A stretch of DNA of 64,000 nt, from contig OZ004590.1 in the NCBI GenBank assembly GCA_963924555.1, positions 6,626,001-6,690,000 of the forward strand. The letters are read 5' to 3'. The stretch comes from Crambe crambe (lineage: Eukaryota > Porifera > Demospongiae > Poecilosclerida > Crambeidae). Of the stretch, positions 3,777-55,784 are shown one piece after another; positions within the stretch are counted from its first letter, which is position 1, and each line of letters starts with the position of its first letter. The translations under genes were made by a program, and so were the position numbers. The notes below the pieces were generated by a model. That model did not search any database and was not told where the DNA came from. It saw only the letters and a list, made by a program, of their open reading frames with translations.

Positions 3777-4032
3777 TTATGAATGATTATAAATTATACT
3801 ATTTTGGATGAATTGCACACGTACTTAATTAACTGAACATCATGAACTTTGAACTTTTGTGGGACAGTGACTGATCAAGGCAAGGGTGGATCTGATTGTC
3901 GTGTCAACGTTGTAACGCAGCTAGCTGTTCATTTACTTGGCTGTGGATAAACTATAACATCAGCAAGTCAAAGGTAACTATTAGCTACTCCACACAGTAG
4001 TTTGTGGAATAGTTGTTTGAGTTTTTCCCATT

Positions 4033-7000
4033 ATGAGTGGAAGGAGGAGGCAAAGAAGGAGCCGCAGTCGAGGAGTACAAAGGTCTCGAGCTCTTTATGT
4101 GAGTGGGAAAGGTTTTAAGTTGCCACCTCACATTAATGGCTTTCATCTCAAACAACATTTCAGTGATTTTGATGATTACGTAGAAAAGGCCATAATCATG
4201 CGCGATGAAGACCAACAGTCAAAGGGGTTTGGTATGGTTTGTTTCTCTTCTGCAGAAGCTGCCAGTGATGCTATTGAAATGCTCGGTGATAGCAAACTGC
4301 AAGGCAAATATTCTCTCCTTATTTCACAATGGAAAGGAAAGTCTGGTGATTATGGTAGTAGCAGTGCTTCATTAGCTAGTGCTTATGACTTGGAGAGTGA
4401 GTCAGAAGAAGAAGAAGAAGAAGATCTAAGCATAGATGGCAGCAGTACTCTCTATGTCACTGGAAAATCTGGCAAATTTCCAAACCATATCACAAGCAAG
4501 CATTTAAATGAGCATTTTTCTGAGGTAGATCATGTGATAAAGAAAGCTATGATTATTCGTAATATGGCCACTAAAAAATCTTATGGGTATGGTTTAATAA
4601 CATTCACATCTGAGCTAGCTGCCTCTGCCGTGCTCCGTAGATACAGTGGTACCATGCTGAGAGGCAAGCATGAACTTTACATCTCTTACAAGTCAGATTC
4701 AAAGAGAGAAAGCATCTCATCTGTATCAAGTTCACTCAGGTCATCTCTAGCATCTTTTACTTTCAGTAGTGATGAAGATTCTGTGAGTGATATTGAAGAA
4801 AACGAAAGTTGTGATGATCGGACACTCTATATATCTGTTAAAAACTCTAAGCTTCCTGACAACATAAAAGCCAAACACTTAAGGAAGCATTTTTCAAAAA
4901 TGCAGCAAGAAATCGAGAAAGTAATAGTCCTTCGCAATCGCAAAACTCGCACATCTAAAGGTTATGGGTTTATAACATTTACGTCACATTCAGCAGCAAC
5001 TAGAGCAGAGAGGGAGTTCAAATATAGTAAGCTTCATGGCATGCATGAGCTTTATGTCTCGTTAAAGAAATCAAACTCAAAGAAAGTGGAAGTACCTCTG
5101 GAATGCTCAGAAGAAACGATGATCTATTTGGTCCATAACTTCTTTACTCTTGAGTTTGACACTCTCAAAAAATCTCTTCCTGCTGAACTGACAAAAAGAG
5201 GCAATAAAATATATCTTTCTGGGAGTAATGCACAAATCAAGTCTGCTAGTCAAAGGATACTGTCCAGTAATCTTGTTGCTGGATTAACATTGAAGGTTTT
5301 TAATCTCAGTGGTGAAGCAGATAAAGTCAAGCAAAAGTTTGAACTCCAGAAGTATTATCATACCAGATGTATTGTATATGATGAAGATGCATCCAGTTTT
5401 TCATTACTACTGTATGGGAGAAATTCAGTCGAGTATTGCAGTGCATTGAAATTGCTACAGGTAAGCATGCACACATGTAACTAGGTGTTGCATACATTGA
5501 CAGCCAGTGTACAAAAACATTCATCCATCTATATGCAATGTATATTCCCTACAGAAGTTGAAAACTGTACACCACAACAGCTACATACAGCATATTAACC
5601 ACCTATATAGGTACACTGCAAACAAATGCCTATCTTTAGGTTATCTGCATTGCTATGCCAGATGCCCCTATATATTTATATTTGTCATTGCAGATGCTGA
5701 AGCCCCAATCCAAAACATATCAAGTACGTCCAGAAGCCGTATCCCTTCCTGGTCTTTTACCATTTTTAGCCTCAAAGCAATCTGAACTCCCAGTCACATT
5801 TGATAAGCGTCCTGGTCAGACTGTTATAATCCATGGCTTGTGTATGGAAGATATTGAAGCAGCATGGAGTAAGGTTAAAGAATTCATTAATGCTAATATA
5901 ACTATTGAGAAGAAAGCTGATATGAAAGTATTTGAGTTAACATACTTCTTGAAAAAGTTTGAAGAAGAAGCTAAAAATCAGTGTTGTTCTTTAAGTGTAC
6001 CAAGCCAGCTAAAATTATTGCCACCTGGAAGAACAGTCAGCATTAGTGTGCGTGGAAAAGAGAAGGGGGTCAAGATCGTTATAGATAAAATCAAAACCTT
6101 AATTTTATCTACTGATGAAGTTTCAACCGTTTTAGCTATTAAAGATGATGTTGTTTGTATGATGCTTGCCAATGATGAGAAACGCTTCATTTCCTTGAAG
6201 TTATTGGCTAAATATCATGGAGTGGTGCTACAGGTGGTGTGTGAGCCTCATAACATAGGCTTGAAGATCATTGGAACATTGATGAAGCTAAATCCTGCTA
6301 AAGAAGCTATTTTGAGTTATATTAAGTCTATTGAACTGGATTCCACCCAGCTTATCTTCAGTGCATCCTACAAGCAAATTTGTGCCTCCAAAGAAGTTTC
6401 TATGTACAGTGATAATTTGAAAGAAAGTGAGAGTATTGTCATGAAATTTTCAACTGATGAAAGAATTCTCAGACAAGTCCATTTGCGCACTGAAAGTGGT
6501 CATGTGACCACTATTCAGATCGTCAAGGGTGTTTTATCAAAAGAGAAGGTTGATGGTATAGTTCTTCCCACGGGTACATCAACAGTACAGCATCAGTATC
6601 CCATTGAGCTAACTGGTTTGAAAGGGCAGTCTTTCCAAGATGGTTGCAGTCAGTATGTATATAATGATAGTTCTCAAATTGGAGTTGGACTGGCCGTTGC
6701 CATTGATGGCGGAGAGCTACCATGCAAGAAAATCATTCACACATTATTTCCACTGAGTGTCCAGAGAATGTCCCATACAAGTCAATACAATACAACCATG
6801 AGAAATATCTTGCTCCGAGCTTCTGTATTGAATCTGGACAGTATTGCTTTCCCTGCAATCAATGCTCAAATGATACAGGCAATAGCTGATAACTTACCAT
6901 CTCAGATGCATGTGAGTGAAATACGAATAGTTCTCGAAAGTAGTGCTGAAATTAAGGCATATGTTCAAGCAATGGATGCTTTATTTCCCGAAAGTTCCTT

Positions 7001-8516
7001 ACCCACTCAAGCTGCAATCTTTTCCTGGTCGTGGTATAATGATGAGAAATCATATACAGCGTACTCAAAAATACTTACTGATAAGCTGAATGATGCTTTC
7101 CGCACAGACCCAAGGGGTAAGTGCAGTTTTGTGATCAAAGGAGAATTGTATGAAGTTGATTTTCAAACTATGAAGCAAGTTAACAAACGCACTGGTTTTT
7201 CTCGTTCAGTTTCAAAGACTATTTCTTCCTCTGCAAAAAATGCAGTTATGTGGTATTACATGGCCGATACAGCTCAGTTCACAGCTTATGATCCAGCCAA
7301 TTCAGCCATTATTGAATCTTTCTATGCCCAAAACGATTGCTCCAAATGTTTAATTATAAATTCAAAAAGATATCGATTTGATTTTAAAGCAATGAAACAG
7401 ATTAATGATAGTACTGGATACAAACGGACTATAAAACGCGAAGCAAAAGGAGGAGCAGTTTCTAAATATCTTTCAAATAATGAAGTGGTGATCAACATCA
7501 GAGGACCAAAGGCTACTGTCACACAAGTTACAGCCAAAATTGAAGAGAAATTGTTGAGTCTTCTATATGTAAAGAGAATACCCCTACCAACTTCTTTAGC
7601 ACTTAGCAGTGCTCTGCTACACAAGTTTAGGACCACTGCCAAAAGGTATGCTGTTGGTTTTGATGAATCAATCCAAAGTGTGATCAAGCTGGAAGGATTA
7701 GAGCTTTCTGTGCAAGCAGCTGTAACTGAAATACAGGCAGATATCATCAACTTTCAGTCCATTTCGGGTAGCACAGCATCAAAAGTAGTTAAAGAGGACA
7801 GTGATTACCCTAGTGAATGGGAGCCACAGTCGGATGACTGCAAAATTGTCAAAGTATCGAGACACTGTATGGAATTTAGTAGTGTTGAAGCTAAGTTCAA
7901 AGAAACACTGCCCTATTACAGCATTATCGAGATAAAGCGAGTCCAAAACAAGTGGTTATGGGATCGCTATGCTCATGCTAAGCGAATGCTCCATAAAAAG
8001 AACGCTGGAAAGATCAATGAAAAGGAATTATTTCATGGTTCAGGGGCAACTCGCTCTGATGAGATTTGTGCATCTGATGAGGGATTTGACTCCCGATACT
8101 CTCGTGAAGGCTTGTGGGGACAGGCAAATTATTTTGCAGTGAATGCCAGTTATTCAGATGCATATGCACATCCTTTGAATGACCTGCAGTATGACAGTAG
8201 AGAAGTGATACTAGCCAAGGTATTGACTGGAGACAGTTGTGAGTGTAGCCAAGATAGAAAATTACGAATGCCCCCTCTGAAAACTAGCCATGATAAAGAA
8301 ACGAATCTAAAGCAAGTGAGATATGACACTGTCAGTGGAACAACACAGGGCTCACAAGTTTTCATGACGTATTCTAATGATAAGGCATATCCAGCTTACA
8401 TCATTGTGTATACTAGAAAGAGATCAACATCTCGGGAGCTATCAACTCTCCAATCAAGTGCACCACCGTTTTCAGTGTTGTACAGTGCGTTCAAGTCAAT
8501 GCTTAATAAAAGTTGA
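4033..8516 (+). CDS. PARP14/PARP10-like mono-ADP-ribosyltransferase: RRM x3, KH-like, macro, WWE x2, PARP
   Basis: Two exons (4033-5460 and 5694-8516) give about 1416 residues. Three RRM-like domains at roughly residues 20-100, 137-220 and 260-340 each carry an LYVSGK-type RNP2 and a KGYGFI-type RNP1, separated by acidic linkers. KH-like folds appear to fill about 345-730. A macro-domain-like region covers about 735-910 but lacks an obvious canonical ADP-ribose-binding Asn/Gly loop. Two WWE domains (about 917-990 and 993-1060, starting FSWSWYND and VMWYYM) bind ADP-ribose units in other proteins. The catalytic domain, about 1195-1400, has ELFHGSG (triad His), QANYFAV (triad Tyr) and YPAYIIVY, where the third triad position is Ile. 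H-Y-I predicts mono- rather than poly-ADP-ribosylation. PARP14 relatives act in antiviral and stress signalling. Confidence 0.88.
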
Positions 8517-15998: not shown

Positions 15999-17412
15999 TT
16001 AAATCAATGGTGAAAATATAGCTATTGTTAATTTTTCTGTGGCGTATAATGAGCCACACTCAAATAAGCATGCTATTTTGAATCGATTAGTGTCAAGGGC
16101 CATGCTTGAGTATGCAGAAGGTCCTTTCCATAGTTGAAAGTCTGCCTTCCATGATTCCCCTCCATCTACCGAGTGGAAGAAGGTAATGTTATGACGATCA
16201 ACAGAGAGTGGTTGGGTGATGTAGAGGTGTGTGTTCATGTACACCCCTTCATAGGGAATAGCCAGAATTGAGCTCTCGCAGTCAGCCTGAGGATTGAGGG
16301 TCTTGGGCATACTCGTGTTCACCCAAGTCTCGCCTGAATCATTACTGTAAGTAAAGACATGACCCAATGGGGTCCTTGCTGTCATCATCAGCTGTTGCAC
16401 GGCTTTATCTTCAAGGCCGAGGGGAACTATTTGACACTCTTCAGTTGAGGTGTCTCCAGTAGGTTTGGAACCTTTCCATGTCTTTCCATGGTCATCAGAA
16501 TAGATTGAAAAAGATCCTGGTCCACTTTCCCTCAAAGCATAAGCTCCTGAAACAAGTACATGACAAGGAATTGTATAGTGTGGACCAGATACTGGCTACT
16601 GGTGTACCCTATAATTATGACAGGGGCTCCCCTTTATATTTAACGTACCAACTATCAGTCTTCCACTAGGGAGCTGCACACCTCCAGGCATGCCTGGGGC
16701 AACATGGAACCAGATGGGTAACGCAACCATGGCAGTTATATCAACCACATTACTCCACGTGGACCCTTCATCTCTAGTCTCCATCATCAAGATTTGCTTC
16801 TTATTGCGGGAGAAGAGGAGCAAGAGTTTACCCTCCACTCTATCTTCAACAGGAGTTGGATTTCCTATTTGAAAACATGCAAGAAAAAATAGTCATTGAG
16901 TGGGGGCCTCAAGTTATCACCTATATTTAGGGGACTCAGACAGCGAGTAAGCAAGGAGAACAACTAGCTTGCACAAGAGTTATTGGTGGCGGTACAGAGA
17001 GCATTGGGAGCTATAAGTTAAGCTCTAGAGATGTACCTATTCTAGATTGTGGGTATTCAGAATAGACAACAGAGAGATGGGACCAAGTCATTCCAGAATC
17101 ATTACTCTTCTTCATCACAATCACTACATCATCACTGAAATCACTGCAGGTTCTGGTATGAAGACCTCTTCCCTCAGCAAAGGCTAGCATGGTTCCCTTT
17201 GAGGTGTAGAGCAGAGATGGGATCCTGAAACACTGATAACCCTCTTCTGAACTGGTGAAGACATCCCTTTGGATCATGTCTGGAGGAGGACCTAGCGAAA
17301 TGTCACCTGATGAAGATGGAGCAGCAGCTGGAGAGCCATTTCTGTTGGATTCGCTGACTGTCAATACAACAGCAGCTGCAGTGAGTGCTAGCAACCAGAA
17401 GCAGCTATTCAT
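15999..17412 (-). CDS. NEU1-like exo-alpha-sialidase with signal peptide
   Basis: Three exons read leftward (17037-17412, 16649-16864, 15999-16546) give 379 residues. The N-terminus NSCFWLLALTAAAVVLTV looks like a signal peptide. CFRIPSLL is the FRIP motif holding the first of the sialidase arginines, and AFAEGR follows. Five Asp-box motifs (SxDxGxTW type) occur: SNDSGMTW, TRDEGSTW, SDDHGKTW, SNDSGETW and SVDGGESW. The C-terminal LWKGPSAYSS matches LWPGPSGYSS of lysosomal NEU1. The enzyme should remove terminal sialic acids in lysosome or secreted space. The middle donor was chosen at GTACGT (complement of 16643-16648) because only this keeps phase and joins RLIVG to AYALRES. Confidence 0.85.
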
Positions 17413-29887: not shown

Positions 29888-32800
29888 ATGAAGATATTAT
29901 TGAGCCTTTTATGCTTGAGAATCATTCAATGCAGCTTAATCAGTCGGAGCATTGTAAAGGGTTGTGATCTTTCCGACACTTCTGAGCCAACGAGAGGAGA
30001 TGGACAGATATGTAGGAAAAAATTTGTAGTATCAATGACTCTAAGGAGTGATCAGGTTATAAACAAAGATAATAGTTTTATACACAATAGTTAGGCCATT
30101 ATTTTATTGTAGGAAGAAACTGAAGCCCTCTATGCTAACATCAATACAGCATATGATGAAGGAAATCAAACTACAGGTACTCTTAAGAAGCCTTACCGGA
30201 TTGAGATTGCTAAATCTGAAGTACTTGCAAATTATAGAGTCTATTACCGTGGTGTAAGTTAAATGAATATTCTATCATCTACCTTCAAGTACTCATTTAC
30301 TGCAGTCTGTCAATGCTCTTCCAACTGAACATGTAATATTGAACTCCAATAAGTTTTGTGTAGATGGATTTTTCACCCAATCAAGCACATGTGGCACATA
30401 CTTTGACAGCAATGGACGTCCAGTGTGGGACAGCCAGGTATATACGAGCTTAGAATTTAATTGCAATGGTTCATTGCTATTGACATCTTAACAGGGATTC
30501 TGTTGCTATTGTGAAAGGCAGGAGCCTTATACAATACAAAGATCATATAATGCATCATGTGGGAGTTTAATTCAAAAGCCACATGTATACATAGATGGGT
30601 CTAAAAAGAAGTTTAGATCTTCTGCTCATTGCATGAATTTCTCTAAATTGTGGTAAGTAACATAATTAGCTAATCACGAAAGAACCAGTTATTTCTGGAT
30701 TTAGGTATGATGTTTATGAGATCGAGTCCCCCAATCTCCACTATAATATCACAGTATCGCTAAAAGGTCTCCAGGTTGCACGAGTTGACCAAAAGAATAA
30801 AAAAGCACATTATAATTGGACAGCTCTCTCTAACTTCACACTCACACCAGCAAACCCTGCTGGAAGATCTGCAAATGGAAAAGTGTGGAAAAAATAATAA
30901 AATTTCCTGTAGCTAGTTTGAATTCCATTAGGTTGTAGCAGAAATTCAGGGAGATTTATTAGGTGGTAGAGGGCTAATGGACTTGACTACAAAGAGACTT
31001 CTCATTCCTTCACTCAGAGCATGGCATGAGGATTACATTCCTGAAGAATATAGAGTAAGTTGCACATAGCTAGCTAGTGCTATTGAGCCTGTGAGTGATT
31101 TGAAATTCAGAATGGTCCACGTGATTGGTTGCTCGTAGATGAGCACTTGGTTGATTTGGATGGGAGAGAGTGTAATAAAATAGGACTTAGTTTTTCAGCC
31201 TTCAGACTTCAGCCTGGCAAATGCTTTCAGGCAATTGGCTCGTAAGTTGAGCAATTAAGTTCTGTGTGACACTATAGTTTTATTGTCCATCATACTGTTA
31301 GGTGTTTTACTAATCAACCTAGTCACCTTTGGAGGGCAGATAATGTAAGATGATTTATATAGCTAGCTAGAATTATAGTGAAATATCTTATGATTGTCTT
31401 CTCAGCTTCGTCGTGAATATGGAATAAAGGGATTTTATATGATGCATAATTATGGGAAAATTCATCCCTCCACTCACATAAACAACAGTAGTTTTATTAT
31501 GAGGCTTATATTCAAGAATTTCCACAATACCTTCATCACATTTCGTATTGATGCTGGTGACTTGGCTTTTATTGTAAATATTGGGAAAGGAAGAATCGTG
31601 AGAGCCGAATCTCGTGGATTCAACAAATCCACAGCTACATCTGGTGAAGTTTTAGTGGTTATCGAGAATCAAGGTGAAATAACACAGCAATTCAATGTAG
31701 TCTTACAAAAATGCTTTGGGAGGGATAATTTACCATCTTCAAAAGCAACAGTATTTCCTGGTCAGACTGCAACTCTCGTATTTCCTCTACTGGCTCAGAA
31801 TAAGAAAAAAATTACAGTTCACTGTGAAGGTAGCTAGCTAGCTAGATAACAATCTTTATAATGTCATTTTTATTCATTAACACAGTGCAACTATTTGATC
31901 AACAATTTACTCTACTTGGAACAGCAAGGCTTACTTTTCATGCTGAAGCTCCTTGCTTTTGTTTTGGAATCTGTGACTGCACGGTTAGCTGGCTAAACAT
32001 AGTTGGCAAATACTTATATCTTGGATTCTTACAGTGTGACGAAATAACTGGTAAAGTGACAGAGAAAGAATGTCCAACACCTCCACCCATTTATGTTGAC
32101 ACAGCAAGTCTTGCAACTAGAATTCTGCTCTATGTTCTTGATTTCTTAGGTCTGCATACTATTGTGGCATTTTTTGCTGCAACCCTCATTTGTTGTGGCT
32201 TGATAAGACTGATGTTTGGAGGAGTTATTGTATGCCGAAAAACTAAAGCACAGCAATATTATGACGAGCAAAGGGAAAAAGGAGCATTGCCAAAAGGTAA
32301 AATATGGCTAGAAACAGGGAGCTAGTGATTTTACTATGGTTTATCCAGGTCCTGCGCTGGTAAAGTGTTCTGGTGAGTGTAGAGGTGCCAAAGCAGCTAA
32401 GGCAAGGGTCAAACGAAGAGCAGAGCGAATGAGAAGGATGGGTAAAGACCCTCATTACCTTGATGATTGGGCAAATACTTCATTCGTTTGCAACTGCAAT
32501 GACGAGTGAATTTATAATACAAAATATATACGTACGATTTATTTTCCTTTTTTCTTATATTTTCAGACTCACCGATATTCGATGTGTGGGCATCATCAAG
32601 GCTTTGTGTTTCTTTTATTATCTACTCATCCTGCCATTCATCCTGCTGGGTAAGAAAATCTGGTGGTGTATATTTAAGGATACTGTGGACAAAAAGAAGA
32701 AGGCTGAGACGGCTGTAATCAAAAGTGCAAAACGAAAAGGTGCCAAAGAGTTGGAGAAATTAGGAGTGGTATCAATACGTGCAGATTTACAAGATTATGT

Positions 32801-33959
32801 AAAAGAGAATAAGGAACTTGAAAAGAGAAAAGAAGAAATTAGAAAGATTGAGGAAAGGAAGCAAAAGAAAAGAGAAATGAAAAAAGAGAAAGACAATTTA
32901 ACACTTAGTGGTACACAAAATACACCAGCACAGCATAGAACTAAAGACTCAGAAAAGACTGATCACTTGTTGGGAGACAGTTTATCCAAAGATGAAAGCA
33001 CTCAGGAAATATCTGCTAATAATCGTCATTCTTCTGTTGCTCCCTCCAAACAGAACTCCCAAAAAGCAAACAAAGTGATGAAACCTAGCAGTGACCAAAG
33101 TAATCAAAAACAGCGTAAAATAACAGAAGAGCCTGGTCACATATTAGGTGACAGTTTATCTGAAGATGAAGATGCCGCCATGGGAACCTCTCCAAAGCGT
33201 CCTTCTCCATCAATACAGAAGTCTCATAAAAAGAAGAAAGTACTGGGAAAGACTAATAACGGTACCAGTACCCTTAGTACTAATAACGGTACCAGTACCC
33301 TTAGTACTAAACAAAGTACAGCTGGATCCTCTACTGCTACACTTCCCTCAAAACAGAAGTCTCCCAAGAAAAGAAAAGATGTCATGAAAGCCTCTGAGTC
33401 TCTCGCAAAGAAGAAAGCTGGAGATACAACTAAGCAAAAAGCATCTGCATCTTCACCAAAACCTCATTCTTCTACTGCTGCTGAAGTTCCCTTAAAATCT
33501 CCTAAAAAGAAACAGACTAATAATAATGATAGAGAGATAGGTGGTACCAGTAGCCCAACTGCTAAATTTCTCTCTCCGAATACTAAGAAAGTCCAAGGTG
33601 AAAAGCATGAAGGTGAAAAACGCTTATCAGATGACAGTTTCTTTCAAGATGAAGAGGCACTAGATGTTGCCAAATCCTCTCAGAGCTTTACAGAGGACAG
33701 CATTGAAACATCGAAGACTACAGAGTTAAAAGAGCCCAATGAATCTAGTACACCATGTAAAAATCCAAGCCCTGTGGATGTATCATCTACAGCTTCACCT
33801 TTTACGGATGATAGCATTGAAGGACCCAAGACTAAAGATGTTAACCAAAAAGGGTCTATTGATAAGAATGAATCTAGCACAGCAGATGAAAAATCAAGTC
33901 CTGGGACCGGAGCAGCTCACACAGAGAAAATCATTAAAGATAGCAAAGAGACGATTTGA
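29888..33959 (+). CDS. HAP2: HAP2/GCS1 gamete fusogen, paralog A
   Basis: Thirteen exons (29888-30055, 30113-30253, 30306-30437, 30495-30652, 30705-30882, 30932-31054, 31111-31241, 31302-31344, 31406-31829, 31886-31983, 32035-32296, 32349-32505, 32567-33959) join in phase to about 1135 residues. A signal peptide (MKILLSLLCLRIIQC) is followed by the HAP2 ectodomain: CRKKFVVSMTL, GFCCYC, and the HAP2-GCS1 signature SSAHCMNFSKLWYDVYEI. After CFCFGICDCT comes a transmembrane region near residues 557-595 (IVAFFAATLICCGLIRLMF). An Arg-rich stretch, a FVCNCND motif and a second hydrophobic block (ALCFFYYLLILPFILLG) follow, then about 430 Lys/Ser-rich residues. HAP2 is a class II-like fusogen that merges gamete membranes. 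Confidence 0.9.
33252..33305 (+). repeat. In-frame 27-bp tandem duplication in HAP2-A tail
   Basis: Two identical 27-bp units (33252-33278 and 33279-33305) encode the nonapeptide TNNGTSTLS twice in the cytoplasmic tail. Identity at every base points to a recent duplication or an assembly artefact. Confidence 0.9.
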
Positions 33960-34124
33960 CAATAGATCCTAAAATTAAATATACCCATAATATTATAGTT
34001 AGTGCAATTGGTGCTACACAACTGCATTGTTACTGATTCCCATCCATGGAATGTCAATGAATCAATTCATAGTACATTGTAAAAAAGCAACAGAAAAATA
34101 GATAACTAGCAAGCTAGTTAGTGG

Positions 34125-36534
<2,410 letters not shown>

Positions 36535-36789
36535 TTCTCGATCTGTACTAAACTAGTGAGTACTTTGCTGTAACTTAATAACCCCCGCCAGCTACCATTC
36601 CATTGCAATTCCCTGTAGAGATGTAGAGCTAGTGCGAGTCCGGAACGAACGCTACTCTAATTAGAACACACCTAATGAACTTTGACCTTAAAATATGACG
36701 TCATGAAAATAATGCTGAAACAAAAATAAACAATACTGAAACACAAAAACAAACGATGCTGAAACATAAAAATGAAAGTGTTGACCGTT

Positions 36790-39176
36790 TTATGGGGGAG
36801 GATGGAGTGTTTGTCTTGCAGGACATTCGAAATGAACTATGTGAAATACCTACAGAAGAAAAATTAATGGTGTAAAAAGAAGTAAATCTTAACTTTCTGT
36901 ACCTCGTTAGCTGTATTATGTGTGCCAACGATCTTGATAAAAGTGACAGGGCGAGGAGAGAACTGAATTGACTGCCATGAATGACAGGCCTCCTTAGTTT
37001 TGTCCACCACTTTAGTCCAATTCCGCTGATCACAAGACACTTCAATATAATAACTATATGTACGGTCATCACAATCCCACAACAATAACCTTTAAAAAAA
37101 CACAAAAAATTAACAACAATAACACCTTACTCTTTGCATTACCTCATGGAAGATATAATATAGGGCTGGGCCAACTGGATTACTATGCTTCCGGAGCCCA
37201 GCTGATGACAGGTATAGCCAGAGTCCCAGTCATAATCTCGTGTGTTACCATTCAGCAAGGCATTACGACTTCTACTGACTCCATCCAGGACAGTAGCACT
37301 GGCTGAAATACTGGCCACATTTTCCGTGGTTACTGTTGAAATTGAATATAATTAAGACATGAAAAAAAAAAGGGGGTGGGAGGGAGGGGGGAGAGGGCTC
37401 ACTCTGAAGGCCATTTTCTCCCAATTGAAATGATTTGAAAGTGTAGAAACAAGCAAAGGAGACTAGATGGAAGCTGCGATTCATAGTATTGTTGACTCCT
37501 ATTACTCTAATGTAGCGGACCACTCTCTTTGGGAAGAAAAGCTCCTGCCAGGAGCGGCAAAGGTACTCGGAACGGTCTACCACAGTCACCCATTCTTTGT
37601 TATCCAGCGATACTTGGATCAAATAGGAGTAAGATCTGAGGTGAAGGAAGTATTATAGTAAGCCTTTGTAACAATTACTCTAATACCTGTTGTCTTTATC
37701 CCAAAGGAGCATGCTGATGCAATTGATGATGTATGGCTGGTTCAACTGAACAGTGATCCCCTTGCTTCTATCGCGAGTGATGGTGTGAGTGGTATAGCCA
37801 TTTTCCCCATTGTAATTCTCCGTATCTCCATTCAGTAAGACCTCCTTGACCTGCCCCTCAATGGTGCTCGCATCCCGATGAGGTGTGGCCACATTCTCCT
37901 CTGGAACTTAAACAGATAGAGATATAAAATATTGATAGAATAAAGAATGGAAACTGCTTACTTAAAAGTCCTCTGTGCTTGAGATCTAGTAATGATCGCT
38001 GGTCTACGAGGTAGAGGGCATCCAGGATCTTATCAGGTTTAAACATGCCACTTTTCCGAATCTCCTGAAGCAGGTCCGACTGAGAAATGAGCTGGAGTCT
38101 GATTCCATCGAGGAGGTCTTTGGCATCTTCACTCTGAACGTTATTATGCTTCATCCACTCTCTAATTCCATGGAATATCTCAATCTCCGGTGCAAAGAAA
38201 GAGTCTCGACTAATGAGCTCTGCAAGGGCCATTCGGGACAGAGAGAGAAAGCTATCAGCTTTCATCACCTCAGGGGCATGGATATCAACAAATGTAGTGC
38301 AAGCATCTGCCAGCTCCTTCAGTTGATAGTAGCTGGCTACATTGTAGATGATACAAACATTGCTGACACTGAGAGTGGCCTTCAGGTAGGTTGTGATCGC
38401 TTGCTGTAATGTGCCAAAGTCATACTTATTGGCCAATCCCAACATGTGGAGAAGTGTCTAGAATGTACAGATATTATAGTAAAGGTGAAATCTTGTTATA
38501 ATAAAGGACAAAAGAGAAGAGAACTGGTGCATGAACAAAGACAAAGAATAAGATACAAAAGAGAGTTCCCACAATAATTATAGCTACATAAATAGGATGT
38601 TAAGTTAAGTCATCTGGCTGCCGTAGCTCTAGTCTCGCTAGCCAGCCGCATACGTCTGGCACCCGAGACTACCCTAGCTCCTCCAGGGTGCCACAAATTG
38701 CAGTTGATCCTCTATTTTATGCTAGCTGGTGTGGTCCCTGTGTCATGTTTTCATGAGACCAAAGGTTTAAAAAAAAAAGAAAGAATTACTGAGTCAGTTT
38801 ATCCCATTATGCTTACATCCTCATTCAAGTCTCCCAAACACACTCTTCCCGAATAAATGTACTCTAGCAGTAACTCAAATGCTTCGGGAGTGGTGTCTGT
38901 AAAGGGGATTTCTCCATCAGGTCCCAAATGAGCTTCCTTCATGTCCCCAAATAGGAGAATTTTGAAATAAGTGCAGCGAGCAGCAAGGATAATCTTGTGG
39001 GCTGGGAAACGCTTTTCATTCACCAGAAATGTCACGTCTGTGTGTTCCTTGGATTTCAAGAGATCTAGCAGGTCACTAGATATGTGCTCAAAGTGTTCCA
39101 CATCCCCCAAGGCATCGAAGTTGATGCCCATAGTCGAGTCCCTCGAAGATCGACAGAACTCACGAGTATCACACAT
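36790..39176 (-). CDS. BTBD9: BTBD9-like BTB-BACK protein with two F5/8-type repeats
   Basis: Exons on the minus strand encode an N-terminal BTB domain (HTDVTFLVNEKRFPAHKIIL, then FELLLEYIYSGRV), a BACK domain (ASYYQLKELADACTTFVDIH, SFLSLSRMALAELISRDSFF) and two related discoidin-like repeats. Repeat 1 includes IINCISMLLWDKDNR and YLCRSWQELFFPKRVVRYIR; repeat 2 includes LLLWDCDDRTYSYYIEVSCD and FIKIVGTHNTANE. This is the BTBD9 architecture, and GTHNTANEVFHIVHFECP is nearly identical to the vertebrate C-terminal motif. BTBD9 is a CUL3 substrate adaptor candidate. The tail after ECP is very short (about 10 residues), whereas vertebrates have a long Ser-rich tail. An intron holds an AGTCTCG inverted repeat. 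Confidence 0.9.
38629..38672. repeat. Imperfect inverted repeat, AGTCTCG-ended
   Basis: CTAGTCTCGCTAGCCAG at 38629-38645 and CTGGCACCCGAGACTAC at 38656-38672 form inverted arms (14 of 17 complementary) in a BTBD9 intron. The AGTCTCG end matches the perfect inverted repeat at 21689-21748. Confidence 0.7.
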
Positions 39177-39407
39177 TGTGGTAGGTTCCTAGATCTAGTT
39201 ACTCACAGGGTGCATTAGTCGGGTGGTAGCTCGACCACAACAGAGCTCGGCTATTCATTGTGCAGGCGCTAGGCCCAGAGAAACGCTTTGGTGCTTGGTG
39301 TGTACATCACTTGCACTCGTACTCTGACCCTAACTTTGTCCCCTACGTCACAATTACCATGGAAATAAAAAAAACAACACCTTTACACGTGAACTACTAC
39401 TATACTC
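39177..39407. promoter_or_regulatory. Divergent promoter region of BTBD9 and PCNX4
   Basis: This 231-bp spacer separates opposite start codons. It contains TACGTCACAATTACC (CRE-like TACGTCA) at about 39342 and ACACGTGAAC near 39385. No TATA box is convincing. Confidence 0.4.
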
Positions 39408-43376
<3,969 letters not shown>

Positions 43377-43448
43377 CAACACAATAATAGACTAGGGTCT
43401 TCCAAAAATCAATTCTGAACATTATCATAGGTATTATATATTTAACTT

Positions 43449-45280
43449 TCATAATATTTCATCTCTATCAATGATTTGGAACTGTTCTTCTGCCTCAAGA
43501 CAGAGGGTAATGTGAGTGTTTATGATTGCAGAAGGGATGTTCCCCATACCGCAAACTGGGCATGTTCTATAGTCATCGATGTTTAGGAACCAATCGTCAG
43601 GAGGGGGTGTCCCCTTTACTGGATCAGTGTCTTCTTTTGTGTCATCATCAATGACTGAGGTTTGGGGGGGGGGGGGGGGGGGGGGGGGGACATCAAGATT
43701 AGGCTTATATTTCTATTAGTGCTCACCATAAGCAGTGTTGTCATGAGTGACAACTGATGAAGAAGAAGCTTGATCAGTAGAAATATTAATTGAAGGGTTT
43801 CTCTCATTGGTCTCATTGGTTAAATTAACCACATTTCCAATTCCTTCATCTCGATTCTCAATGATAATTGAAGGGGTTTTGCTAATTGAAGGGTTCTCCT
43901 CATCCTTTCTATCCACCTTCCCCTCTGGAGGTGAGTCAGCGATAACAATACAGTCATCAAGACGAGGTTTCTTTGGAATGGTGGAGGTATAGTCTTTGAG
44001 GTTCCGTTGAGTTGGACCTTTTACTTCACATGAGTTAGACAAACCATGAAAAGTGTCTTTTCCTTTCCTTTTTGCTCCTTGCTGTAGAGATGGCAGTCCT
44101 TTTAGCTCGTTCTTGGTCTTTCTCCTCTCAGCTGCTTCAAGAATCTTACTCCTGAGGTCGACCTTCTCTACTTTCTGCTGATTTCCACCTCCAAGAGTAA
44201 ACCCACAACCTTCAAAAGCCTTAAAAGGAGTCTCAAGTGCTGAACCTCTGGAGTGGTCAGCCTTACTCCCACCTGACATTTTCTTCTCGCCTCCAAGCAA
44301 TTCTCTAATGTCCTTGCTTCCACTAGCTTTATTTTTCCCTTTATCTCCTCCACCCTTTCTCCTCACTTTCTTTCCATATCCTTCGGGCTCCTTGATTTTG
44401 ATATAAGTACCACCACAAGTTCTCTGGTGTTCAGACCACCATGGATCCCTCTGTGAAGGAGGTCGATTCATGGCCCTCATCACGATACCATAGTAAGGGG
44501 GTCTCTTCTGACAGGGTCCATTACATTTCCACCAATGTTGCTGGTATTCCTTTACCTCATGATGGAAGCTATGATATACCTGTCGAAATGAACTAATTAT
44601 TATATGATCTTGGTAGATTACTGACTCACTGTTATCTTGGCTCCTGAAGCTTGATTAATTCGATGCATGTGATGGAGGAACTGCGGGCCATGGGCATCAT
44701 GATCCTATACAAATTCAATCTTTTCGATCGAACATTCACACACACACACACACACACAGCACCATTTACTAACCTTATAGTTATGAGTCACAAATAGGTA
44801 AGCATGGATCATCTCGTGCTATATAAGGTTAACAGCTCAGCAATTAGCTATAGCCATGAATTCAAGTACCAATAGAGTTTGAACTAGATCACGTCTTGGC
44901 CGCAGCTTCAACAGAGGCTGACTGAGCCTGATGGAACAGAATCCACTTCTATTCTGATAGGAACAAACACCAGCACACCTATGATAAATATATATCAAAG
45001 ATCAAATAGTATGTTATATAAATTAGATGTCATACAGAGTCATTTTGTTACTCCAGTCAACTGCCACGCCATTGGCAGCCAGTTTGCTCCAAAAGAAAGT
45101 AGAATCGTACTCGATAAATAATTGATGGATATTGGGATTGGGATCTGCTAATTCCCAATGTTCATCCACTATTCCCTTTGAAAGATTCGTCTTCTTTGTA
45201 TCCACAATTTCAATCTCTTTGTTGTCATATTCATTCTGGAGAGACAGAGCCAAAGCAAAATCCAGATCACTACTGCTCAT
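43449..45280 (-). CDS. SPRTN: SPRTN (Spartan/DVC1) DNA-protein crosslink protease
   Basis: Minus-strand exons beginning MSSSDLDFALALSLQNEYD; the frame runs upstream only to a TTG. The SprT metalloprotease core is LQTLHEMIHAYLFVTHN, giving the HExxH-type zinc site as HEMIH, followed by DHDAHGPQFLHHMHRINQAS. WKCNGPCQKRPPYYGIV and CGGTYIKIKEP are the zinc-ribbon region. A long Lys-rich region follows, and the C-terminus has a UBZ4 zinc finger, CPVCGMGNIPSAIINSHITL followed by C. SPRTN digests proteins crosslinked to DNA during replication and is recruited through ubiquitin, PCNA and p97. A 26-nt homopolymer lies in the last intron. It is head-to-head with HAP2-B, 89 bp apart. Confidence 0.9.
43664..43689. 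repeat. Poly-G run of 26 nt
   Basis: Twenty-six consecutive G on the plus strand; on the SPRTN coding strand this is poly-C forming the polypyrimidine tract just before the acceptor AAACCTCAG. Homopolymer length is likely polymorphic or uncertain in assembly. Confidence 0.9.
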
Positions 45281-45369
45281 CTTCACTGGGGTCAAAGGTC
45301 GTGTTTATGCGCGATTCGAGCGGGAAATATGAATTGTTGCCATGGGCGCCATAAGTAAAGAGAACCAAG
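45281..45369. promoter_or_regulatory. 89-bp divergent spacer between SPRTN and HAP2-B
   Basis: Start codons of SPRTN (45280, minus) and HAP2-B (45370, plus) are 89 bp apart in opposite directions. The spacer contains TTTATGCGCGATTCGAGCGG and a CCATGGGCGCCATAA stretch. It should contain both promoters unless transcripts overlap. Confidence 0.55.
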
Positions 45370-48300
45370 ATGTTTTTTATAATTCTGAAGCATGTTACAC
45401 TTATGTTGGCGTTATTAATATGTTGTCACTTCTACACCGTAAAAGCAACCATTATATCGAAATCTTCAAAAGATGAATGCATTGTGGAGGATGGAATAAA
45501 GAATCCAAATGATACATTTTGTAAGAGCAAACTTGTTGTTGGCATAACAGTTAGTGCCAATGAGGTAGGCCATTACATCTCCATTCAATTGATAGAGTAT
45601 TAGTTTTGTTACTGTGATAATTATAGGGGAAATCACAATTTATACAAGCAAATATATCAAGGATATTAGATTTAACAAAGAGGAAAACAAAAAATCTTGA
45701 ATTAAAAGAACCAATAAGAATCAAGGTTGTGAAGTCTCCAGTGCTCATCAACTATCGATTATATCAAGTTGGAGTAAGTATACACGCAGACAGCACTATT
45801 TATGGCTCAGAATACATGATTCTATGCAGTATGTTCCTAACTGGCCACGAGAGGAGATTAAAAAAAAGAACGGATATGGTTGTGACGATAAGTGGTACAG
45901 TAACAGCAATCATGTCAACTGTGGATTTGCTTATGATAATAAAGGACACAAAATTTTTGATAGTCAGGTGAAAAAGTAAAAGTAGCTCACTAATGAAAAT
46001 ATTTAACATTATAGTTCTTTCTGTACATGTACAGGGGTTTTGTTGCATGTGTGGGATACACTTTCTGGAGCAGCGCCTCACCAGGGGGAGTGCAGCACGT
46101 CATGCATGTTATAGTTTTAACGAGAACCCTACAAGAGAGGAGATGGAAAGAGATTTTGGCACAAAAGAAAGAGAAACAAGACGTTGGATAGGACACTGTT
46201 TGGTTATTGATGAATTAAGGTAAGCAACGAATGAAGTTCTTACTGTATTTTAATTTATTATCTATTATAGGTACTTTGTGATGGGTTTTTACCCACCTCA
46301 GTTCCTATTTTCAATCAATGTTACCCTTGAACAGCGCTCCAAGCTTACAAATAATGGTAGTGAGGTTTGGAAGACTGTATCTCAGCTTAGCATTGGCCCA
46401 AGTAAGACAACAGCTGTATCAGAAACTCATACAGTGAGGAAATAGCTAACAGGGTTGTTTGATTATTAATGAGCATAATAAATGCAGGTGAAGGTTAAAT
46501 ACGTGGCTGATTTTTATCCTTCCACTTTTATTCCAAGTGAAAAAATTTCCCAGAGGTATCTCCTCATCCCAGATATGAAGACACTGCAGCCGAATAAGAC
46601 GTATTCTGACATACCTGATGAGGAGTGGGAATTATTTAAAAAATCAGTTAAAAATGTCTCTGAATGGATGGCAATAAACAAACCATTCTTTGATATGACG
46701 GGCTATAGCTGTGATAAAATTGGAGTATCTTACACAGCATTTAGGCATCAGGGTACCAAGTGTAGAAGTCTTTATGGCAGGTTATTTATAACTAGTCGGT
46801 TTGTAGGCTATCATTAAGATATTCTTTATGCTTGTCACAGTTGCCTCCGTAATCAGCCATACCTGCTCTGGAAGGAAGAAAAGGTGCAGAAATTTCCTCT
46901 TCAAATAGCTAGCTAGTTAGTGTTAATTTTTTCTTTAGCGACTTCAAAAAGAGAGAAGAAAAGGACAGTTTATGCTCCACAATTTTGGGAAAGTGCATTC
47001 ATTGCCTCACACTAAAGGACTGACAGATTTTCAGGTCAACTTCATTGCAGACAGGCCCACTACAAGCATCATTATTGTCACCATGGCAGCTGACGATCTC
47101 AAAGTGGTCAATCGAGTGGCTCCAGGGAGAATCATTTCCGTCTTCATTGATACATTTGAAGCCCTTTCTTCTACTGGACTACTCCTTGCAGTCATTCAGA
47201 ACACAGGCACATTCACATCCACTTACAATGTAGCTATAATTATCCTTTAGGTACAGCAATATGCTAGCGTCACTAACATTGTATACTGAATTTAGGTGTA
47301 TATTCAGCACTGTTCAGCTGGAATTGACCTGATTCCTTCTAAAGTGGTCACCATGAAACCAAAAGAGATGAGTAACGTCTCCTTCGTCATACACTCTTTC
47401 CATGCCTTGGGGACAATTAACCACTGTCAACGTATGTAATTATAATTCTGAAAGCATGTCTATTATTTAGCTAAGAAATTTTATTTGGTAGTCAATCTGT
47501 ATGATGCCAACAGCAGGCTTATCGATAACATGACTGTAATATTTGAAACGTTGGATACTTGTTTCTGCTATGGCTTCTGTGGCTGTGCGGTAAAACTGTT
47601 ATTTTGTTTGTTTGTTTGTTTATTTATTTACATGTATTTAATGTAATATGCAGTGTGGGACTAATAAAACCATTTGCCCTGATGCCCCCAAACGTCCTGA
47701 CTCTGAAATTGAAGGATATGTTCCCACCTGGCTTGAGCGCCTTAAGGCAGCTTTTGAAAAATTTAAAGATTTCTTTGTGAGCCATGGGAGCAAATTTTTG
47801 ATCCTTTTCTGGGTCATTTTGATCGGGTACTGTTTAGGATGTCTCAAAGTGATACACATAATCATCACTCAAGAAATCAAAATGGACATGATCCTCCATC
47901 CTGCCCAATTAATCCTTCAAAAAGCAAAAGAGATAGCCAAGTACATCTACAAAGAACTCTGTCCAATGATCTGTGATAATTTCTGGACAAGTTGTGGGAA
48001 TTGTTGTGCATTTTGTGCAATGAAATGTATTTGTTGTATCACACTGGGGAAGTGTTGTCGAATTAAAAAGGTCACTGGGAGACGTCGTATTGAGAGGGGC
48101 TGGAGAGCCCCAACACACTGCAACGGGATGTGCGATGGGGCTAGATTCAGAAGGAGAGTGCACAGAAAATTGATGAGAGTGAATAAAAGGGCTGGCATGA
48201 TCAAAGACATCCCTTGGTTCTCCAAACCTTACAACTGTACCTGCAAGGTCAAAGATCAAATGCCATGTATAATGATCTGCAAAGGACTATTTTTCTTCTT

Positions 48301-49196
48301 CTATTGCCCTCTCCTCCCCATCTTTTGGACAGTAGAATTCATTTTCAAGTACATAAGAAGAAAATGGAGGAAGTTTAAAAGGATAAAAAAGTTCCGGACT
48401 GAGAGAGCAGAAAGAGAGAAAAAGAAACAGCAGGCTTATGTACACTTGGATAAATACAGTAGAGGTCAACTGGAATCTGATATAGTGAATTTGGATCGAG
48501 AAGTCAAAGAATTAAGACAACTGGAAAAGGAATATGGTAGGTGGGTGTTAAAGGTTAGAATTGAATATCATTACGCTCTAATTACAGAGGCAGATATGAC
48601 AGGGTTCAACCCAGACTTGGAAGATTTACAGTTGGATAAAGAATCAGAGAATGATGATAGAAATGCATCATCAGATGGATCAATTTTAGACACTAGTGAT
48701 CCTGATCATTCAAATGACATTGATGAATTGTTGAATCCAGGGTTTCCTGTCTACATGAATTTTGCCATACCCCAAAATAGTCATGCTCTGCAAGTGAGTA
48801 AGAAGATAATACAATGATGTAAAAGCCCACACTATTTGTCCTATCCAGAAACCAGGAGAAAGCTATAGCTTAAAGGGACGGTTGACTGAAGATAAAACAG
48901 AAGAAAGCACCACATACTTTTTTGACTTGCATATTTGGAAATGTCAGGTAACTATCATTATTATTATCTTGATATTAACCATTGTACCGATTATTAAACT
49001 CAAGATCAAACAGCAAATCAATGGCAAAGCAGTAAAACTCAAGCAACCCAAACAGCTCCTCAAGGAAGATTTTATCCATTCATTTGGAGACCAGTCTCAG
49101 CTTATGAGACTAGTGACTGTAGCTCCCTTATTCACCTGTTTGAATGGTGTGCGCAAGAAAAAGAAGCAAGTAGCTAATAATGAGAAGAAAACATGA
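45370..49196 (+). CDS. HAP2: HAP2/GCS1 gamete fusogen, paralog B
   Basis: Twelve exons (45370-45564, 45627-45773, 45830-45967, 46035-46219, 46271-46433, 46488-46780, 46841-46883, 46939-47229, 47296-47431, 47492-47589, 47654-48793, 48849-49196) join in phase to about 1058 residues. The N-terminal hydrophobic stretch VTLMLALLICCHFYTV looks like a signal peptide. Ectodomain landmarks parallel paralog A: CKSKLVVGITV, NYRLYQVG, KIFDSQGFCCMCG, GHCLVIDELRYFVMGFYPP and CFCYGFCGCACG. The transmembrane segment is FLILFWVILIGYCLGCLKVI, followed by a Cys-rich block, an Arg-rich stretch (RFRRRVHRKLMRVNKRAG), YNCTCK and a second hydrophobic block (GLFFFFYCPLLPIFW). The segment 48948-49013 may be an in-frame intron, which would shorten the protein by 22 residues. 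Confidence 0.87.
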
Positions 49197-54751: not shown

Positions 54752-55784
54752 ATGCAGTGCAAGATCTTCATTTCTTTAATTTGGTGTACATTGGTGTTCT
54801 TTGACAGTGCTATTGCAGGTACAATGCTATGGCAGCTACATGCACTTGGACATTAATTACTATTATATTCAAGTGGGTAACAATACCCTGTGCAATTCTG
54901 GACAACATATCATCCAAATACAAGGCCGTCCGGGGAGAGATGGTAGAGATGGACTCCCTGGGACAACTGGTAGGGAGGGACAAAAAGGAGAAAAGGGATC
55001 AACCATAGGTATATAAAATTCCTCTTTGTATTATAGCCAGTCTAGCTATTTTGCAGGTCTTCCTGGACCTCGTGGACCAGCTGGTTTGCAAGGACCTAAA
55101 GGTGATTCTGGATTACGTGGACGCCAGGGCATTACTGGGCCTAGAGGTCCTCAGGGGTTCCCTGGAATTCATGGCCAGAAAGGAGATCGCGGAGTGCGTG
55201 GCTACACTGGACCACCTGGAGCAACAAGGGGGGGAATGACTTACACCAGATGGGGGAAGTCATCCTGTCCCCATGGGACTTCTCTCGTGTATGCTGGTAG
55301 GACTGCTGGAGCTGGTTATTCTTCAAAAGGCAGTGGTAGTAACTATATCTGTTTGTCAAATTCCCCTCAGTTCTTGAGGTACACTCCTGGGAGGCAAGGA
55401 GGTAGAGGTCATCTCTATGGAACTCAATATCAGACAGGAACACATAGTGCAGATACTGGTCCATTATCAGGTGTTAGCCAACACAATGCTCCATGTGCTG
55501 TATGCTACTCTGCCACAAAGGAAGTCTCCATCATGATACCTGGTCAAACCTCATGCCCATCTTCCTGGACTCGTGAATATTATGGGTATCTCATGTCTGA
55601 GCATCATAATCATCATGTTAGCACATATGAATGCATAGATTGGAATCCTGACACAGTACCAGGCGAAGGAGGTAACCAGGACGATGCTTATCTCTATCAT
55701 GTAGAAATTGAATGCCATAATGGTGTTGCCTGTCCTCCATATATTTCTGGAAGAGAAATCACCTGTGTTGTATGCTCAAAATAA
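54752..55784 (+). CDS. Short-chain (spongin-type) collagen with C4-like C-terminal domain
   Basis: Three exons (54752-54818, 54874-55008, 55057-55784) give 309 residues. The signal peptide is [21 protein letters not shown] short triple-helical region follows, about residues 40-107, of Gly-X-Y triplets ([37 protein letters not shown]) split by an intron within a glycine codon. The C-terminal domain starts [20 protein letters not shown] and contains GSGSNYICL and several Cys (ending ITCVVCSK), typical of the sponge and cnidarian short-chain collagen C4 family. Such collagens are thought to contribute to spongin and basement-like matrix. No von Willebrand or fibrillar C-propeptide is present. 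Confidence 0.88.

Follow-up and report, generated by a model that had tools for sequence, protein, structure and literature searches.

The 64,000-nucleotide window of the Crambe crambe genome analyzed here contains two apparently intact, multi-exon genes of the HAP2/GCS1 family, A and B, which form a trio with a third copy, gene C, on the same contig. Positions of the parts of A and B are given in window coordinates, and those of C as positions on the contig (C13). Gene A (29888..33959, plus strand) begins with an ATG at 29888 and comprises 13 exons encoding 1135 amino acids, and gene B (45370..49196, plus strand) comprises 12 exons encoding 1058 amino acids and ends with a stop codon at 49196; the span of 29888..49196 given in the initial annotation runs exactly from one to the other. 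Neither reading frame contains an internal stop. Both models were spliced by hand at GT-AG sites and, since these sites were hand-picked, they provide no independent evidence for the models; the 3' end of B past 48793 is less certain, and unspliced read-through would stop at 48817. The two genes had been described as tandem copies, and they do lie within 20 kb, but they are not a strictly adjacent pair, since the 11.4 kb between them holds other genes.

Exon 3 of gene A (30306..30437) encodes strand b and the bc connection of the domain II tip and ends at DSQ|GFCC; its two tip cysteines and glutamate align with those of Chlamydomonas. Exon 4 (30495..30652) encodes the GFCC motif and, judging from the alignment, the cd connection, the predicted membrane-insertion loop. 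The corresponding parts of gene B are exon 3 (45830..45967, the bc part of the tip, likewise ending at DSQ|GFCC) and, from the gene model and alignment, exon 4 (46035..46219, GFCC and the cd connection). This phase-0 junction and the peptides quoted earlier for both proteins are present. An exon of 43 nucleotides in the gene models is kept at equal size in all three genes (31302..31344 in A and 46841..46883 in B), and most of domain III is encoded in A by exon 9 (31406..31829), without an intron common to B and C. By hydropathy, the N-terminus of each of the three proteins is hydrophobic, and each has a transmembrane segment followed by a second hydrophobic segment. The first segment spans amino acids 575-601 of A (32161..32241, peak 2.33), inside a hydrophobic stretch at 560-601, and amino acids 602-636 of B (47768..47872, peak 2.44). 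All of these features are on the plus strand.

In Pfam scans run without the last 397 residues of A and without the last exon of B and of C, the HAP2-GCS1 family (PF10699) scored 327.7, 296.6 and 258 bits, respectively, against a cut-off of 27.4, with matches spanning residues 42-521 of A (1.5e-97) and 51-691 of B (4.2e-88). A profile built from all three proteins matched six different PDB sequences (E up to 0.1; best 4.9e-70), five of them named HAP2 and one, 5ow4, uncharacterized, which we take to be T. cruzi HAP2. Each protein alone matched the same six (5mf1, 6e18, 6dbs, 5ow4, 5ow3 and 7s0k), the match to 5ow4 reaching 3.5e-47 for A, 4.3e-34 for B and 4.8e-30 for C, in the last case over two stretches with the tip outside both. 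At E up to 10, weak non-HAP2 matches numbered one for A (0.63) and four for C (1.1-1.4). The assignment of both genes to HAP2 is thus borne out for each protein singly; B as a non-HAP2 gene is ruled out by the PF10699 and PDB matches, and the tree described below also keeps it inside the family. The fusexins EFF-1/AFF-1 and archaeal Fsx1, placed in a common class II fold superfamily with HAP2 in the literature, are absent from the PDB sequence matches, and A, B and C are much closer to HAP2. All three resemble HAP2/GCS1 in ectodomain profile, GFCC core, Cys-rich block and transmembrane segment, and A and B also in the tip cysteines and glutamate. The differences are the presence of three copies in one genome, a second hydrophobic segment in the tail and, in the case of C, an altered tip.

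Gene C lies on the plus strand with its ATG at C13:6966055, 291 kb past the end of B, and its hand-spliced model encodes 1234 amino acids with at least 14 GT-AG introns in frame. A PF10699 search of the whole genome (143.1 Mb, 119 contigs) gave seven exon-level matches at three places, all on the plus strand of C13 and corresponding to A, B and C, and all 14 matches that protein A gave there (E up to 1) fell within these three genes. A fourth copy was not found in these searches, which score the best candidates only and which a very diverged copy could escape; a six-frame hidden Markov model scan of the window and of stretches L008-L030, with C13:6890001-6952500 outside it, gave no further HAP2. 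Haplotype duplicates are ruled out by the 28% identity between copies. Directly behind gene C, an open frame of 1893 amino acids (C13:6970894-6976577; L008 8395-9901 plus L030 1-4177) consists of 12-amino-acid repeats followed by RGG-rich, E-rich and D-rich blocks and a GY-rich end. A single in-frame splice (donor L008 8086, acceptor before 8395) would join C to this frame, which may be a giant tail of C or a separate gene; the 1234-amino-acid model ends before it.

The ectodomains of A, B and C contain 10, 10 and 11 introns, respectively. Those matching in both alignment column and phase number nine between A and B, 10 between A and C and 10 between B and C, counts reached for no pair in 20,000 uniform random placements. 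The statement that A and B share almost all ectodomain exon boundaries and phases holds for nine of the 10 introns of A, with one difference each way: an intron at EYR|, before the GPRDW/AGEDYY block, is present in A and C and absent from B, and one at STYN|V / SDYS|V in domain III is present in B and C and absent from A. As C carries all 11 positions seen in A or B, the ancestor probably had 11. A phase-2 intron also lies just before the second hydrophobic segment in A and C, matched by place rather than by alignment. The common intron frame, together with the family profile, argues that one intron-rich HAP2 gene was copied at the DNA level at least twice. The single duplication proposed in the initial annotation therefore has to be revised to at least two, C being a third paralog and the sister pair not settled, while its view of A and B as strongly diverged paralogs that retain the exon layout of an ancestor with introns stands. 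The HAP2 gene of another sponge, Amphimedon queenslandica, is likewise interrupted by introns, three of them common with Nematostella (Steele and Dana, 2009; PMC2766252), so part of the intron frame may predate the copies, and the shared introns give no date. One gene was reported for Amphimedon, from trace reads (PMC2766252), as opposed to three in Crambe crambe, a comparison of reported gene numbers.

Ectodomain identity is 28% between A and B, 28% between A and C and 27% between B and C, and A is 28% identical to Chlamydomonas HAP2; over trimmed columns A is 28% identical to B and 29% to T. cruzi. Since the copies are no closer to each other than A is to Chlamydomonas, either the duplications date far back or the genes change quickly. 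A model in which only the tip diverged was dropped on the A/B identity of 29% in A residues 109-193 versus 17% in residues 194-305. In a maximum-likelihood tree of seven taxa (480 columns, Arabidopsis partial), in which A, B and C are the only animal sequences, the three stand apart from the HAP2 proteins of the alga, plant, red alga and kinetoplastid with an approximate likelihood ratio (SH-aLRT) support of 97.4 and an ultrafast bootstrap of 95, and A groups with B at 86.4/83. In approximately unbiased tests of the sister pairing, p was 0.84 for A-B, 0.16 for A-C and 0.08 for B-C, or 0.52 for the last with another outgroup order. Among 11 topologies tested, a set without the exact maximum-likelihood tree, all four that hold A, B and C together were kept, and five of the seven non-monophyletic ones were rejected at 5%. 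The distance from A to B is 2.35, compared with 2.21 from Chlamydomonas to T. cruzi and 2.16 from Chlamydomonas to Arabidopsis, and at such distances saturation is a concern.

Low identity alone cannot separate age from rate, and A, B and C could instead be recent, lineage-specific copies that evolve very fast and serve as largely redundant sperm fusogens. Gamete and other reproductive proteins often evolve fast, and A and B are still just 11.4 kb apart. However, the branches of A and B are alike (1.16 and 1.17) and that of C is not much longer (1.44), so no single copy stands out as accelerated; the A-B distance exceeds that between Chlamydomonas and the kinetoplastid; and A and B are each missing one ancestral intron, a point in favor of age. 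An acceleration common to A, B and C would nevertheless be compatible with the branch, distance and intron data, and we regard a recent origin as possible, if on the unlikely side. Given saturation, and with A, B and C as the only animals in the tree, the duplications may be either old or fast.

The tip of domain II separates C from the other two copies. Among 38 aligned HAP2 proteins, nine tip residues were described as invariant, namely seven cysteines, a glutamate and an arginine (Fedry, 2018; PMC6089408). All seven cysteines and the glutamate are present in A and B. An arginine precedes the last tip cysteine by six residues in A, by eight and three in B, which has two, and by five in Chlamydomonas, as matched by eye. 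The tip of C keeps the glutamate, the GFCC pair, the HC cysteine and perhaps one more cysteine, and is without the first cysteine, the third cysteine of GFCCxC and any cysteine between GFCC and HC, so that at least three tip cysteines are missing. Its cd part is short, positively charged and rich in aromatic residues (6 of 33, compared with 4 of 38 in A and 5 of 47 in B), and this composition would allow both a loss of function and a new mode of insertion. B or C could be a decaying, non-functional copy, and the several cysteines missing from the tip of C would speak for this. We consider it very improbable, as the open frames of both exceed 1000 codons, with GT-AG introns placed by hand in frame (11 in B, at least 14 in C), and their ectodomain Pfam scores lie far above the cut-off. 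Since the insertion loop is encoded in exons of its own (exons 3 and 4 encode the tip), tip swaps between copies would be straightforward; an intron between the tip strands was noted for intron-rich genomes in that study (PMC6089408).

Alternatively, the paralogs could be subunits of one heteromeric or sequential machine in which C is a non-inserting or differently inserting partner, a reading that we find doubtful. The postfusion forms of HAP2 known so far are trimers, and these consist of one protein. C does, in favor of such a machine, have the body but not the canonical tip, and the study on Dictyostelium reports that both HgrA and HgrB are needed, its authors proposing sequential or multi-component action (PMC4910948).

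HAP2 is described as a single-pass protein in which a basic, Cys-rich stretch often lies behind the membrane (review, PMC8777248). The second hydrophobic segment lies at amino acids 675-709 of A (32574..32678) and 766-794 of B (48260..48346), with hydropathy peaks of 2.39 in A, 1.95 in B and 2.62 in C. When the 200 residues after the first segment were shuffled 5000 times, the peak was reached once for A, 188 times for B and once for C, so that, taken alone, the segment of B is statistically weak. In BLASTP, the surrounding region is similar between A and B (3e-7) and between A and C (1e-4), and weakly so between B and C (0.003). The linker between the two segments measures 73, 129 and 27 residues in A, B and C, is net positive, and contains 4, 15 and 0 cysteines, respectively; the second segment itself includes between one and three prolines, and positive charge follows it. 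Prolines and positive charge on both sides are more in keeping with a hairpin whose two ends lie inside than with a simple second crossing, and from hydropathy and charge only, the segment is perhaps a re-entrant hairpin. Gene B would encode a third hydrophobic segment (amino acids 966-1000, 48915..49019, peak 2.63), conditional on the modelled last intron.

Taken as a whole, these observations favor, with a probability of roughly 0.55, a reading in which A, B and C are diverged paralogs of the class II gamete fusogen HAP2/GCS1 and A and B both act in gamete fusion with divided or sequential roles. One intron-rich HAP2 gene was copied at least twice, its protein products drifting to about 28% identity. 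A would be the standard gamete fusogen, and B would be complete as well, a second fusogen equipped with an insertion loop of its own. Like A, B would sit in its prefusion form on one gamete; its domain II tip would enter the membrane of the partner, and the protein would trimerize and fold back. Because C has the class II body without the disulfide-clamped tip, it could either insert through its different, aromatic-rich loop or act as an accessory protein or regulator. All three would be anchored by the usual transmembrane segment and, after a basic linker, by the second hydrophobic segment with its prolines. A and B would share gamete fusion in the divided or sequential manner proposed for HgrA and HgrB, although any functional division among the copies, including the partner- or sex-specific roles suggested in the initial annotation, is a hypothesis. 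Several results weigh against this reading: the branching order among A, B and C is not settled; two of the seven non-monophyletic trees, both moving C alone out, were not rejected (p = 0.099 and 0.147); the shared introns may be older than animals and would then not date the copies; the tip arginines of A and B do not line up in one column of the alignment; and B's second hydrophobic segment is not exceptional for its composition.

The closest parallel for several copies is Dictyostelium, which also has more than one strongly diverged HAP2 homolog per species; mating of types I and II is abolished there by a knockout of either hgrA or hgrB, while that of type III is not, both genes being needed for two mating types (PMC4910948). 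HgrB is described as HAP2-like in the motif region only, whereas the match of B and C to the family extends across most of the ectodomain. A role of one copy in somatic, non-gametic fusion, such as syncytium or graft fusion, appears improbable. The related fusexins EFF-1/AFF-1 are reported to fuse nematode somatic cells (PMC9259645), but Hydra HAP2 was seen in spermatogenic cells only (PMC2766252), and a coral study finds HAP2 raised in mature testes and cites the Nematostella protein as one of male germ cells (PMC7579821).

HAP2 carries out sperm-egg fusion in many organisms and is considered the ancestral gamete fusogen of eukaryotes; the animal reports that we found describe one gene. No report of several HAP2s in one animal was found among the titles and abstract openings listed, most subscription papers and supplements lying outside that search. 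The family itself is already known; what surprises is how far the copies have diverged inside a single genome, together with C's altered tip and the second hydrophobic segment of the tails. With its three intact, diverged copies, one animal offers a natural experiment for telling parts that set the partner from parts that carry out the fusion step, and one ancestral machine from several. A more speculative reading, in our view rather unlikely, is that early animals already had several HAP2 fusogens and that the trio is the set this lineage has retained. Two members would carry canonical insertion tips that differ from each other, and the third a new aromatic tip poor in disulfides plus a giant repetitive tail; they would serve different partner membranes or one mixed machine.

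Searches beyond animals gave 21 and 32 pattern matches in prokaryote contigs for the A+B+C alignment and for protein A, respectively, and 14 in viral contigs for the alignment, none of which was confirmed by tblastn; these collections are not where animal relatives are expected. Within the window, the 11.4 kb between A and B contain frames with TPR, BTB/BACK and SPRTN-like zinc-binding domains (Pfam). Three frames on the plus strand at 39393-42838 have no Pfam match and contain numerous hydrophobic stretches; they are perhaps exons of one gene. A long G run at 43660-43690 adjoins the SPRTN-like gene. Elsewhere, a 958-amino-acid open frame at 5640-8516 has WWE, macro and PARP catalytic domains, with an RRM-repeat frame adjoining at 4021-5484; a minus-strand frame at 15999-16595 carries BNR/sialidase-like repeats; and a short collagen-like frame at 55017-55784 (Pfam Collagen) has a cysteine-containing end.

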